Assembly: GCA_028286885.1 (NCBI GenBank)
Contig: JAQBQS010000006.1
Location: 1 to 39,760, forward strand
Source: Patescibacteria group bacterium
GTDB lineage: Bacteria; Patescibacteriota; Minisyncoccia; Phycocordibacterales; UBA1006
DNA: 39,760 nucleotides
Reading direction: 5' to 3'
In this document: in pieces, positions 17,473 to 36,462 of the stretch
Layout: each line of letters opens with the position of its first letter
How positions within the stretch are numbered: position 1 is the stretch's first letter
The notes under the pieces: generated by a model
What the model was told of the DNA's origin: nothing
The model's database searches: none
Seen by the model: only the letters and a program-made list of their open reading frames with translations
Made by a program: the position numbers and the translations under genes

Positions 17473-18303
17473 TTATTTTTTAATATAAAAATATCTCCCA
17501 AGAATCCTTCTGAATTTCTCGGCACGTTTTGCGTTTTTGGAAATGACAAGTTTGTTTTTTCCTTTCAGCGCGGAAACATCCTGAAATTCTTTCATTGTTT
17601 TCTCGTCAAGGATCGAATGGTTCTTATAAACAGAATCAAGTCTTTCTGCAACGGCAGGAGACAGAAATCCTTCGATCATATAATCCCCGATCGCATTGCA
17701 ATAGTAATTTTCTTTGAATCCGAAATTCTCTTTTGCCAAATAATATTGTCCTTGTGTGCCGTCGAAATTTCTTTTTACGATCCTATCAAGCGGGTCGGCA
17801 TGTCCGACTGCTATGAAAATCTGGCGCCTCGTCGCGAATGACTTCTCGACGAGAATTCTGTCCGTTTCCTTGCGCATAAAATACGCCCAGTCGTGCGGAT
17901 TGTAAATATAGACAGGATTGTTGTTCTTCAAAACTTCCAAAAACAAATACAGCGCATGCGACCAAAACACGTCGAGCTCGACAAGTGTTCGGAACGAATA
18001 AGTCATTTTCTCCCCTTCGCGCATATTCAAGAATCCCGCATCGTTCGTCGGTTGCGAATAGGAATATCCTGCGATAGTAAAATAATTCTGCATTTTGCTG
18101 ATCCATAATGATGAGAGAGAAACCGTCTTGTTTGCGACAGTAACAATTTCTCTTGCTTTCATAACTCGAAGCGTCCGATAAACGCCCTGCCGCGTTGCGC
18201 CCTTACGTTTCCTTCCGACCGTTGAAATTAATTCTTCAATCGAAAGAGGCCCTTCTTTCAGGATATCCAATAGATAGTCTTCAATTGTTTTGAGATGCTT
18301 CAT
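17473..18303 (-). CDS. winged-helix DNA-binding protein with unknown C-terminal domain
   Basis: A 276-residue probable transcription regulator. Residues 1-75 fit a winged helix (LDILKEGPLSIEELISTV, then the recognition-like TRQGVYRTLRVMKAREIVTV). Residues about 95-250 form an unrecognised domain, with VELDVFWSHALYLFLEVL, VYIYNPHDWAYFMRKETDR and RQIFIAVGHADPLDRIVKRNF. The end is strongly basic (KNAKRAEKFRRILGRYFYIKK). It is divergent from the CGFN paralogue pair, and the gap has short repeats that could be operators, so it may control that pair and itself (inference). Its general plan, an N-terminal winged helix plus a larger effector domain, resembles the TrmB-like regulators elsewhere in the window, but it lacks their C-terminal motif. 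Confidence 0.8.
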   Translation of the reverse strand: MKHLKTIEDYLLDILKEGPLSIEELISTVGRKRKGATRQGVYRTLRVMKAREIVTVANKTVSLSSLWISKMQNYFTIAGYSYSQPTNDAGFLNMREGEKMTYSFRTLVELDVFWSHALYLFLEVLKNNNPVYIYNPHDWAYFMRKETDRILVEKSFATRRQIFIAVGHADPLDRIVKRNFDGTQGQYYLAKENFGFKENYYCNAIGDYMIEGFLSPAVAERLDSVYKNHSILDEKTMKEFQDVSALKGKNKLVISKNAKRAEKFRRILGRYFYIKK

Positions 18304-18345
18304 AAATAAACAAGTTGTTTACAAGTATGCATAATATGCAACATT
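18304..18345. promoter_or_regulatory. possible operators of the winged-helix gene
   Basis: A direct repeat ACTTGT-N5-ACTTGT (minus strand) just upstream of the ATG at 18303, and a dyad TGCATA-A-TATGCA at 18328-18340. Both lie between the regulator and the paralogue pair. Confidence 0.4.
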
Positions 18346-18370
18346 TTTAGACGAGATGCAATAAATTAAC

Positions 18371-18376
18371 TATAGT
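18371..18376 (+). promoter_or_regulatory. -10 box of the CGFN paralogue pair
   Basis: TATAGT, 35 nt before the ATG at 18412; the leader is A/T-rich with no Shine-Dalgarno sequence. No clear -35. Confidence 0.45.
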
Positions 18377-18411: not shown

Positions 18412-18801
18412 ATGTTTTGCGGATTCAACGAAAAAATGCTCGAAACCTTGTCTGGTTTCAACAAAGAACTTATTACGTACGGACTTGTTCAAAAATCCAA
18501 GGAAAATGACGAAACGACCGAACAGGCAATCCAGAGAGAAATTTCCGATATGTCGCGCTTTCTTCAGGAAACCCATCGGATACAAGATGCGTCCAAAAGA
18601 ATGATGACAGAAGGGCTTCTGAAATACTGCATTGGATTTTACATGAACATGCGCCGCAACAAGGTGGAAGATCACGAGGATATTGTAAAAAGACTCGGCG
18701 AATTCTTCATGTTCATGGATAATCACTATTATTCTGATTTGTGCCACCTTCCCGATGATATGGAAAAATTGGCCAGTGCATTAAATCAAAAAAACATTTG
18801 A
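18412..18801 (+). CDS. CGFN-motif small protein, first of a tandem pair
   Basis: A 129-residue cytoplasmic protein, helical, of unknown function. It starts MFCGFNEKMLETLSGFNKELI and is clearly paralogous to the next gene, which starts MPLCGFNQKMLDGLGLFAEGL; both then have an acidic helix (TEQAIQREISDMSRF versus IEESLKQEIKEMNIF) and end with a Tyr-Tyr-(S/D)-(D/E)-L block. The N-terminal CGFN.KML is the best-conserved part, which suggests a functional tag, modification or targeting site rather than a fold element (inference). The gap to the partner is 2 nt. Confidence 0.8.
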   Translation: MFCGFNEKMLETLSGFNKELITYGLVQKSKENDETTEQAIQREISDMSRFLQETHRIQDASKRMMTEGLLKYCIGFYMNMRRNKVEDHEDIVKRLGEFFMFMDNHYYSDLCHLPDDMEKLASALNQKNI

Positions 18802-18803
18802 TT

Positions 18804-19199
18804 ATGCCACTCTGCGGATTCAATCAAAAAATGCTCGACGGGCTTGGACTCTTCGCCGAAGGGCTCTGGGAGCAAGCCATCAAACGTTCCGAGGAAGACA
18901 AAGTTTCCATCGAGGAATCATTGAAACAAGAAATCAAGGAGATGAACATCTTCAAGGAAATTCTTGCCGAAAAAGATCCCAAGAAAGTCCAAGGCCTTCA
19001 CGGAATTGCGTTTCTCGCCCAAGCTCTTTATGGCCATGCGCTCGATACTGATTCGCATAAAGAATCATACGATCAAGGATTTGCCCGCGAACGAAAACTT
19101 TTCCAAGATGTCGACGCGAAATACTATGATGAGCTCCGACCAAGCTTCGGACCGGAAGAAGCACTTCGCAAGCTCGGCGAGATCATCGAAATCCTGTAA
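18804..19199 (+). CDS. CGFN-motif small protein, second of a tandem pair
   Basis: A 131-residue protein, paralogue of its upstream neighbour, with the shared N-terminus CGFN.KML and a shared helical core. Alternative starts: ATG at 18804, 2 nt after the upstream stop, or TTG at 18798, which would overlap that stop in a TTGA. Either way the two are translationally coupled. It has KYYDELRPSFGPEEALRKLGEI near its end, matching HYYSDLCHLPDDMEKLASAL in the partner. Function unknown. A tandem duplication kept as two diverged copies suggests a hetero-oligomer or two related partners. Confidence 0.8.
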   Translation: MPLCGFNQKMLDGLGLFAEGLWEQAIKRSEEDKVSIEESLKQEIKEMNIFKEILAEKDPKKVQGLHGIAFLAQALYGHALDTDSHKESYDQGFARERKLFQDVDAKYYDELRPSFGPEEALRKLGEIIEIL

Positions 19200-19202
19200 C
19201 AC

Positions 19203-19229
19203 AAAACCGCTCCCTCGAGCGGTTTTTTT
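19203..19229. terminator. bidirectional terminator
   Basis: AAAACCGCTC/GAGCGGTTTT, 10-bp perfect stem with loop CCTC, T run on the plus strand and A run ahead. Shared by the paralogue pair (+) and the NYN gene (-). Confidence 0.9.
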
Positions 19230-19231
19230 AT

Positions 19232-19924
19232 TTATTTCGAATTCGGTTTTTTCGTTTCTCCGCCGTTCGCGGTTTTCTTCTGTCCTCCTCGCCCTCGCCT
19301 ATTTCGTCCTTTCGGTTTTGGTTTTTCCTGAAGCGCGTTTTGGACTGCGGTTGGCGTTACACCCTTTGGAGTTTTTGGATTTTGGTTGTTCGCAGGCGCC
19401 GTCTGTTTTCTTGGCGAGTATCCGATCAGGTATCGCTGCGGGTCTTCGGACAGATCCAAGAAGTCATCAGTAATTTCTTTCAAGTTCATCGAAGATGATT
19501 TCCCGAATGACACGACTTCGACTTGGCATCCCTCGTTGATCTGCAGATACTCGACGAGCGGAATGAAATCCCCGTCGCCCGACACGATGATGACCGTGTC
19601 GAGTTTTGGCGCCATCTTGATCGCGTCGACCGCGAGTCCGACGTCCCAGTCGCCCTTCTTGGCACCGCTTGAAAATATCTGGAGGTCTTTGGTTTTGGTC
19701 TCGATGCCGACTTGGGTCAATGCTTCAAAAAATGCTTTCTCATCTCCTGCTTCGGACGTGATGACGTACGCGATCGCGCGAACGAGCTTTCGTCCCGCGA
19801 GGGCTGATTTGACGACCTCGCCGAAATTGACGCGACGGTTGAATAAATTTCGCGCGCTATGATATAAATTTTGCGCGTCGATGAAAATTCCAACGCGCTG
19901 TTCCGGATGCTTGATGATGCTCAT
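19232..19924 (-). CDS. NYN-domain (LabA/DUF88-type) putative RNase
   Basis: A 230-residue protein whose first 170 residues match the NYN domain, a PIN-like fold with metal-dependent RNase activity in studied members. Visible conserved acidic sites: FIDAQNLYHSA (first Asp), DWDVGLAVDAIKM, VIIVSGDGDFIPLVEYLQ, and the closing VSFGKSSSMNLKEITDDFLDL. The C-terminal 50 residues are Lys/Arg/Gly/Pro-rich (KPKGRNRRGRGGQKK), a likely RNA-binding tail. Targets are unknown. TAGACT with extended TGA lies 6 nt before the ATG, so it is probably leaderless. Confidence 0.92.
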   Translation of the reverse strand: MSIIKHPEQRVGIFIDAQNLYHSARNLFNRRVNFGEVVKSALAGRKLVRAIAYVITSEAGDEKAFFEALTQVGIETKTKDLQIFSSGAKKGDWDVGLAVDAIKMAPKLDTVIIVSGDGDFIPLVEYLQINEGCQVEVVSFGKSSSMNLKEITDDFLDLSEDPQRYLIGYSPRKQTAPANNQNPKTPKGVTPTAVQNALQEKPKPKGRNRRGRGGQKKTANGGETKKPNSK

Positions 19925-23492: not shown

Positions 23493-24251
23493 ATGGAAAA
23501 AATCCTCACTCGCCTAGGGCTCGGTCCCAAGGAACAAAAGGTGTACAAGCTGATCCTGGATCGCGGCAAGATTTCTGCGGCACAGATTTCGCGTGCGGCA
23601 TCGATCAATCGGACGACGGTCTACGGAATCGCCAAGGAGCTCCTTGCCAAAGGACTTGTTATTGAAGACCTTGGCGGAAAGGTTTTGTATTATCTGCCCG
23701 CGCGCGAGACCGAACTTGAAAAAATCATCAAACGGGAAAAAGAAGTCCTGGACGAGAAAGAGTCAGCCGTGCATGAGCTCCAGGATGTTTTGAAAAATCT
23801 GCCGCAGTCGCAAACGTATTCAGTACCGAAGATCCGATTTGTCGAAGGACGCGACATGGAGCATTATTTCCGAGAGGCATTCCCAAGATGGTTTGAAAGC
23901 ATGAAACACGTTGACCCGAGCATGTGGGGGTTTCAGGATCACACACTCCTTGAAACATTCGAGCATATGATCGACTACAGCTGGGACGTAACGCCTGCCG
24001 GGCTTGATATCAAGCTCTTCACGAACCAATCCGATATCGAGAAAAAAATGCTTGGCAAAAAATACGCCGAGAGGCGCAACATGAAGTTCTGGGAGACAGA
24101 CCAATTCTCTGCGACTCAATTGGTTGCGGGCGATTATATTGCGATGATCATGACGAAACAGAAACCCTACTATCTTGTCGAGATTCATGATGCCGTGATG
24201 GCGCATAACATGCGCCAGGTGTTCAAGAAACTGTGGGAAGAATTGAAATAA
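23493..24251 (+). CDS. TrmB-like transcription regulator (copy 1)
   Basis: 252 residues. N-terminal TrmB-type winged helix: MEKILTRLGLGPKEQKVYKLIL, recognition helix region INRTTVYGIAKELLAKGLV and the wing EDLGGKVLYYLPA. A coiled-coil linker (EKIIKREKEVLDEKESAVHEL) leads to an effector domain with IRFVEGRDMEHYFREAF and ending VMAHNMRQVFKKLWEELK. Classical TrmB proteins are sugar-sensing regulators of archaea; the ligand here is unknown. The start at MEKIL is supported by TATGGT 6 nt upstream. It is divergent from the cupin and shares the whole plan with copies 2 (33162-33890) and 3 (35680-36462). Confidence 0.9.
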   Translation: MEKILTRLGLGPKEQKVYKLILDRGKISAAQISRAASINRTTVYGIAKELLAKGLVIEDLGGKVLYYLPARETELEKIIKREKEVLDEKESAVHELQDVLKNLPQSQTYSVPKIRFVEGRDMEHYFREAFPRWFESMKHVDPSMWGFQDHTLLETFEHMIDYSWDVTPAGLDIKLFTNQSDIEKKMLGKKYAERRNMKFWETDQFSATQLVAGDYIAMIMTKQKPYYLVEIHDAVMAHNMRQVFKKLWEELK

Positions 24252-33161: not shown

Positions 33162-33890
33162 CTATTTCTTCCCCATTACCCACATCATCTCAAAATATGC
33201 CGCCAAGCTTGCAACCATAGCTTTGCTTCGGACTTCGATAATTGTCTGCGGTTCGTCATAAATTTCGAACAGTACACGATCATCAAAGACTTCAATGCTC
33301 ATATGCGCTGCTAAATCTATATCGATATACCTGATATCGCGGAACGTAACGTTTTGATGGGCTTCAATTTCCGCCTTCAGGTGTTTCTGCGAGACGATTC
33401 GGTCGGTGATCTTGTTCTTTAATGCCCACTGCTCGTATTCGACGAATGTCTCACCCATCAGTTTCACCCAAGGGTCACCCGCCATTCCGATGGTTCGGAA
33501 TGATGATTTCGGCTTGGTTGTCCTCATAACTTCCTGCCATGCTTCTTGCCAACCTCTCGTCCCCTCGTAGATTGTGACTTCATGCCCGCCTGCATTTGAA
33601 AGTCCGGAAACCATTTTTGCCAAGTCGTTCGCGCTTTTGATCTGGCGTTCGAACTTGGTGACGAGATGATCGGGATTTTTCAAGGTGAAGAACTTCTTCT
33701 TATTCTTCTCGACTTCTTGGACCAAGTTCTGATTCTCCAGGTGCGCCAATGCATCGTAAACGATATTTCGATGAAGGTCTGCGAGCTTGATGATATCGCC
33801 TGCACTCGATGATCCTCCGAGTTTTGCGAGCGCTTTGTATACGATTGTCTCGTTTGGCGTAAGACCGAGGTTTTTGAGAGTAGATTCCAT
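33162..33890 (-). CDS. TrmB-like transcription regulator (copy 2)
   Basis: 242 residues. Winged helix MESTLKNLGLTPNETIVYKALAKLGG ... DLHRNIVYDALAHLENQNLVQEV, linker, effector domain with VTIYEGTRGWQEAWQEV (matching VEGRDMEHYFREAF of copy 1 and FEGQEGLKKIYRSML of copy 3) and the end SLAAYFEMMWVMGKK. TATACT lies 6 nt before the ATG. A 12-bp dyad 38 nt upstream is a strong operator candidate, and the divergent gene is a lipoprotein with two promoters, so this regulator probably controls both. Confidence 0.9.
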   Translation of the reverse strand: MESTLKNLGLTPNETIVYKALAKLGGSSSAGDIIKLADLHRNIVYDALAHLENQNLVQEVEKNKKKFFTLKNPDHLVTKFERQIKSANDLAKMVSGLSNAGGHEVTIYEGTRGWQEAWQEVMRTTKPKSSFRTIGMAGDPWVKLMGETFVEYEQWALKNKITDRIVSQKHLKAEIEAHQNVTFRDIRYIDIDLAAHMSIEVFDDRVLFEIYDEPQTIIEVRSKAMVASLAAYFEMMWVMGKK

Positions 33891-35680: not shown

Positions 35681-36462
35681 TATTTCTTCCCCATCTTCCA
35701 CTGAACCGAAAACAGCTTCTTCATATTGTCCGCAATCGTACGGTTGGTGATCTGGATGCCGACCAGATGATTCTGTTCGAACGAGAGAATGCTCGCCGTA
35801 TCTCCCAAGATGTACAGCGCGAAATTCTTGAGCGTGTCTTTTTTGTTCATCTTTTTAACAGAGAGGCCTTTTCTCGACTTGTAATACGTCGAATGTTTTT
35901 TCTCTTCAGTCGAATCGTTGATCAAGAGCTCCGTTGCGATATTTTTTTCTTTGCGGATCGCCTTGATCGAAACGTGCCATTCCTTGTCGAAGATGAATTT
36001 CCAATCCGGCTGCCAGACGAACTCGTCGCGCATGATGTGAAACGTTTCATTCGGGTTGGATTCTCGCAGCATCGATCGGTAAATTTTCTTCAAGCCCTCT
36101 TGCCCCTCGAAGACGGTGATCTTCGGAATGCTGACCATGCCTCGCAATTGTCCGATCGTCGACTCGAGCCCCGAGAGGATTTTCTTGCGCTCGGTGATCT
36201 TCTTTGATTCGGCGTCGAGGGATGCTTGGAGTGCAGACAGGTCTTCTGCGAAGAATTGCTTCACTTCGTTGCGGTGTGTTGTTCCTACGAACCCTTTGCT
36301 GATGAGAACGGAGAGGGTCGTGTAAACGCTGCTGCGTGAGAGATTACATTTCTTCGCGATTAACGCTGCCCCCATCGGAGACTGTTCTAAGAGCGCGGCG
36401 TAGATCTGGGACTCGTAATCGCCAAGTCCCAGGGCTTCGAGTTGTGGTGCGAGATGCTGCAT
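35680..36462 (-). CDS. TrmB-like transcription regulator (copy 3)
   Basis: 260 residues from MQHLAPQLEALGLGDYESQIYAALLEQSPMGAALIAKKC. The winged helix continues NLSRSSVYTTLSVLISKGFVGTTH, then a coiled coil (AESKKITERKKILSGLESTI) and the effector domain with ITVFEGQEGLKKIYRSML, ending NMKKLFSVQWKMGKK, like copies 1 and 2. I start at this ATG rather than 22 codons upstream because family similarity begins here and a dyad (36474-36491) lies 12 nt before it. Divergent from a cupin-like gene. Confidence 0.88.
   Translation of the reverse strand: MQHLAPQLEALGLGDYESQIYAALLEQSPMGAALIAKKCNLSRSSVYTTLSVLISKGFVGTTHRNEVKQFFAEDLSALQASLDAESKKITERKKILSGLESTIGQLRGMVSIPKITVFEGQEGLKKIYRSMLRESNPNETFHIMRDEFVWQPDWKFIFDKEWHVSIKAIRKEKNIATELLINDSTEEKKHSTYYKSRKGLSVKKMNKKDTLKNFALYILGDTASILSFEQNHLVGIQITNRTIADNMKKLFSVQWKMGKK

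Follow-up and report, generated by a model that had tools for sequence, protein, structure and literature searches.

Two small adjacent genes in a patescibacterial genome encode proteins that have diverged over most of their length but share the same first residues, and a gene for a winged-helix protein runs away from them on the other strand. The locus raises the questions of whether the pair belongs to a wider family, whether the regulator belongs with it, and what the shared start may be for. Within the window, that is, the whole 39,760-nt stretch of DNA analysed, the relevant features are as follows.

17473–18303, minus strand: divergent regulator of 276 aa, with an N-terminal winged helix and a C-terminal PLD-like (TrmB-type) sensor domain, assigned by fold
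18307–18321: candidate operator, perfect inverted repeat TAAACAA-G-TTGTTTA (putative function)
18328–18340: candidate operator, perfect inverted repeat TGCATA-A-TATGCA (putative function)
18348–18376, plus strand: weak sigma-70-like promoter for P1–P2, TAGACG-17-TATAGT, 9/12 matches
18412–18801, plus strand: P1, long-form CGFN protein of 129 aa, start MFCGFNEKML, predicted helical bundle
18418–18441, plus strand: P1 motif CGFNEKML, leading into helix 1 and covering its beginning
18804–19199, plus strand: P2, long-form CGFN paralogue of 131 aa, start MPLCGFNQKML
18813–18836, plus strand: P2 motif CGFNQKML
19203–19226, plus strand: intrinsic-terminator-like hairpin at the end of the P1–P2 unit, a 10-pair stem followed by a T-run

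The stop codon of P1 and the ATG of P2 are 2 nt apart. The P2 reading frame has two possible starts, TTG at 18798 and ATG at 18804, of which the ATG is likelier because the homologues begin at that Met-Pro. P1 and P2 are 28% identical across 112 aa (pairwise E of 8e-9) and each matches the family profile over its full length; they are therefore paralogues, with chance excluded, as the original prediction of tandem paralogues with a conserved CGFNxKML start had it. A degenerate DNA pattern for the motif, TGYGGNTTYAAYNNNAARATG, has two matches in the whole genome of 0.85 Mb, one in each of these genes, and none in the control. The repeats predicted for the 108-bp gap are there as the two perfect short inverted repeats, which do no more than suggest operators. 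The promoter is a weak call, its pattern being found 5 times against 3.3 expected in shuffles, and operators, promoter and terminator alike are pattern matches only. Convergent with the pair lies a gene for an NYN-domain protein with an arginine/lysine-rich tail (19232–19924, minus strand).

We compared 13 long-form homologues, in which the Met, Cys, Gly, Phe and Asn of the start, M9 and E43 are invariant. Mean column entropy is 0.31 bits over residues 3–10 vs 1.78 over residues 14–129, and residues 3–10 form the lowest-entropy eight-residue window of the long-form protein, which bears out the claim that the N-terminal block is the most constrained part. As a family motif CGFN is conserved, but it marks one of two branches: CGFN/CGFD proteins, mostly long (~130 aa), and SGFS/SGFN proteins, either short (56–66 aa) or long (~116–120 aa). 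Common to both is M-P-x-[C/S]-G-[F/Y]-[N/S/D], in every case a few residues from the start. The short forms are single helical hairpins (MPPSGFSQ...) and the ~130-aa forms double hairpins (MPLCGFN...). The C-terminal half of long SGFS proteins is 50–58% identical to short hairpins from three loci; the long form thus arose by duplication of a hairpin and has no second copy of the motif. The proposed modification site on the Cys is unlikely family-wide, since some members have Ser, Asn or Lys there instead; the targeting or docking role suggested alongside it is a plausible hypothesis.

The P1 model that AlphaFold built with 13 homologues is all-helical (pLDDT 91.5, pTM 0.82), with five helices at residues 7–31, 36–51, 60–81, 85–110 and 116–126, so that P1 is very probably a helical bundle. 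Residues 1–6 precede helix 1, and model confidence over residues 1–10 is 75, below most of the helices, which is consistent with an exposed element. Judging by how the helices follow one another and how long they are, a conserved DxxYYxxL close to the end of helix 4 would be expected on the side of the bundle where the N-terminal motif is. The PDB and viral fold libraries held no match to the model at E < 1.

Searches of a first sample of related genomes with the protein gave one relative, and a scan of GTDB species genomes gave three more (a Verrucomicrobia MAG, a Woesearchaeote and a Pacearchaeote). By profile, 15 of 371 genomes in the DPANN phylum of L008 have the family, counting true members only, other weak matches there being without the motif or left unexamined; a second DPANN draw added four genomes. 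The family is present in 4/347 genomes of the window's order, the window's own included, in one more genome (L010) among 380 of its phylum, and in 1/115 Verrucomicrobiota, the same MAG as first found. This census, drawn as samples from DPANN, the window's phylum and order, and Verrucomicrobiota and not from all phyla, gives a frequency of ~4% among the DPANN genomes sampled and ~1% in the window's order, plus the single Verrucomicrobia MAG. The family is thus commoner in sampled DPANN than in the window's order, whose phylum has small genomes in keeping with the CPR placement of the original prediction; the motif neither stands alone in this genome nor loses its conservation among homologues. 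Candidate members L011, L061 and L064 were rejected for lack of the N-terminal motif, the match in L061 additionally falling within an apparent helix-turn-helix. Pfam, NCBIfam, PHROGs and PADLOC contained no real match for the family, their weak helical matches being scattered over unrelated families and treated as noise. By sequence the PDB returned only E-values of 0.04–0.75, mostly designed helical bundles, and a literature search on CGFN found nothing relevant.

A regulator gene lies beside the family in 22 of 24 assessable loci, nearly always head-to-head. This includes all 18 assessable archaeal loci (14 in the first set, from which G699 was left out as not assessable at a contig end, and 4 unseen) and four of the five in the window's phylum; in L049 and L056 one other gene separates the regulator from the family operon. 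When the association was predicted for the four previously unseen genomes, a TrmB or Lrp-type gene stood head-to-head in 4/4. The chance of an upstream head-to-head regulator is ~0.9% per locus, or 0.12 expected in 14, an approximate figure that takes homologue counts as base rates and gene number from genome size. We are almost certain that P1 and P2 belong to an undescribed, regulator-linked family of small proteins. The original prediction of an undescribed system was right to this extent, but its pairing of CGFN proteins is not the rule, a locus carrying 1–4 copies in tandem and often just one.

The regulators themselves come from more than one family. TrmB genes adjoin the family in L008, L048, L050, L053, L054 and L056, and dual Lrp-type genes do so at eight loci of the first set (L007, L049, L051, L052, L055, L058, L059 and L060), with an additional TrmB downstream in L007 and L059. 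Pfam confirmed these identities at the scanned loci: the TrmB loci carry PF01978 above the curated cut-off, and an AsnC-type winged helix (PF13404 and PF13412 above cut-off) is encoded in L049, L051, L052, L055, L059 and L060. The regulator is divergent in the window, L063 and L062; in L071 a TrmB gene sits just upstream on the same strand. The neighbourhoods of L072, from the window's taxonomic family, and of L006, from Verrucomicrobia, have no regulator. In L072 (2517–5427) the SGFN gene adjoins a recG-like gene, a short 5' part of which is duplicated. In a tree with 18 further Lrp paralogues from the sampled genomes, the seven complete family-linked Lrp proteins group in a single clade (support 98/99); the comparison set was picked by a profile of the adjacent regulators, but the tree itself is independent of that profile. 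The same clade includes the second copy of G579 (L075), which adjoins a gene for an unrelated small exported protein.

TrmB proteins are archaeal sugar-sensing regulators (PF01978), and the window's divergent winged-helix protein, present as predicted, is TrmB-like by modelled fold. Its AlphaFold model (pLDDT 88.9) has as best solved structures Pyrococcus TrmB (3qph, E of 2.6e-5), followed by NucT, a nuclease of the PLD fold (6ehi, E of 2.7e-4). In sequence it is collinear with a TrmB profile set over 192 columns at E of 2.4e-4 and a probability of only 44%; Pfam gave nothing above cut-off, PF01978/TrmB included, and the homologue in L004/L063 has a weak TrmB score of 12.2 bits. Homologues occur in 15/317 genomes of the order, its own included, and adjoin a permease, substrate-binding proteins, a cupin and others. 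A regulator dedicated to the CGFN genes was therefore rejected; with such varied neighbours, it is probably a general local sensor-regulator. The regulator's place in the proposed system thus holds for adjacency but not for specificity, other loci having TrmB or Lrp instead. Of the five PF01978 TrmB matches in the genome, three lie in this 40-kb window (23505–23693, plus strand; 33684–33878 and 36262–36441, minus strand).

The best explanation of the whole, to which we give a probability of about 0.4, is a small induced effector module in which a sensor switches on adaptor proteins with a docking N-terminus. The local sensor-regulator, with its TrmB-like winged helix and PLD-like domain, would bind the shared intergenic region and, on a putative small-molecule signal, switch the P1–P2 pair on. 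The two proteins, folding into the predicted helical bundles, would then act as adaptors, probably as hetero-oligomers, and the short element (M)P-x-[C/S]-G-F-[N/S/D] would dock to a shared partner. In its favour are the strong constraint on the probably exposed start, the hairpin duplication, the regulators at nearly all loci, the single clade of family-linked Lrp proteins, a regulator exchange at an orthologous site (L050 and L051) and the TrmB-like fold of the window's regulator. Family members are probably cytoplasmic, and their most likely role, by inference, is that of adaptors induced by the local sensor; docking by the N-terminal motif is a tentative assignment, with the odds somewhat against it. 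Against a docking module stand the two loci without a regulator (L006 and L072) and the Lrp-clade member beside an unrelated gene (L075). An all-against-all search of the neighbourhoods found no recurrent third gene besides the regulators, so no docking partner is visible there. Several DPANN loci encode small, probably membrane-anchored or exported proteins close to a family-type regulator or a member of the family (L075 3557–5010, L094 7933–8286, L052 7073–7315 and L049 5235–5696), some with D-x-D-x-D-like loops; all-against-all comparison gave no common family among them.

Near-universal head-to-head adjacency would also fit small proteins that act as feedback partners, using the N-terminal motif to bind the adjoining regulator and adjust how it binds DNA. 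The syntenic loci L050 (6045–8125) and L051 (3781–5369), both between asparaginase/GatD-like and GatE-like genes, speak against this: at this orthologous site the regulator is TrmB in L050 and Lrp in L051, while the CGFN genes are near-identical and the SGFS gene is absent from the Lrp version. The regulator was thus exchanged and the small gene stayed, which makes the small proteins the constant part. As TrmB/PLD and Lrp regulators belong to different families, one conserved motif would need to fit unrelated surfaces, and in L006 and L072 no regulator is near to be bound. We consider such co-regulation unlikely.

A toxin-antitoxin or anti-phage defence module, with small genes that duplicate and decay fast, would account for the patchy distribution, the tandem copies and the broken ones (a stop in L056 and L094, a split ORF in L055). 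However, none of the PADLOC anti-phage defence models matched, protein searches of phage and plasmid collections and a pattern scan of viral contigs found no relatives, and single genes stand alone with a regulator in L052 and L053, so that a toxin-antitoxin pair is not required. This reading is more doubtful still than co-regulation.

The conserved start could instead be partly a nucleotide-level element, such as an mRNA site or a recombination or gene-conversion seam, acting beyond the protein motif. All 33 genes examined, from 22 loci, encode the motif Gly by GGA (27/27 and a further 6/6), including P1 (18421–18423) and P2 (18816–18818), and even where GGA is a minority Gly codon (17% in L006, 22% in L062); the Phe, Asn, Ser and Cys codons vary, and over the motif the DNA of P1 and P2 is almost the same. 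The product of local GGA frequencies, ~1e-9, is overstated, since the loci have common descent and GGA use already runs at ~45–50% in the early codons of adjacent genes. Such third-position constraint, which also counts against the adaptor module, suggests that the nucleic acid too may be acted upon. Synonymous variation elsewhere in the motif and the conservative C/S, F/Y and N/S/D changes nonetheless indicate protein-level selection, and we hold a nucleotide element to be as doubtful as a defence module. We give equally little credence to a broader scenario, a cross-domain accessory module that DPANN archaea and the small-genome bacteria of the window's phylum would share by horizontal transfer. 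In it, local sensors of unrelated kinds would switch on GFN/GFS helical-hairpin proteins for an episymbiotic lifestyle or conflict, their start serving as both a protein docking element and a GGA-dependent nucleic-acid signal.

A degenerate relationship to the all-alpha NTP pyrophosphohydrolases of the MazG fold, whose metal-binding motif is EExxE...ExxD, is very improbable and was rejected on motif and E-value: the weak fold matches include the MazG-related 2yxh (TM 0.49/0.53) and long forms have E22 ... E43xxD46, resembling part of the metal site, but the fold match has an E-value of 4.0, the EExxE half is absent, position 22 is Thr in P1, position 46 is non-acidic in several short forms, and Pfam gives no match.

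The family, absent from the curated libraries tested, connects DPANN archaea with the bacterial phylum of the window, and its own sensor-regulator at nearly every locus offers a handle on function. The natural swap of regulators at an orthologous site marks the small proteins as the conserved core, and a 56-residue single hairpin together with a double-hairpin form makes a compact system for the study of hairpin duplication and assembly. Among known systems, Pyrococcus TrmB resembles the window's regulator in its winged helix and PLD-like sensor domain, but the latter has no Pfam TrmB sequence match, and known TrmB targets lie in sugar metabolism and are not small helical proteins. The Lrp/AsnC family supplies the regulator at the eight first-set loci, although as a subclade apart from the other sampled paralogues and with a small helical family for a neighbour. 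MazG-like enzymes share a small helical bundle and a partial acidic pattern on helices 1 and 2, but neither significant sequence or fold similarity nor the EExxE element. The arrangement is otherwise that of operons of a divergent regulator and small effectors, with the regulator head-to-head with its likely sole target operon; it differs in that the effector family is undescribed and found in the window's phylum and DPANN archaea, and in that its regulators are exchangeable.
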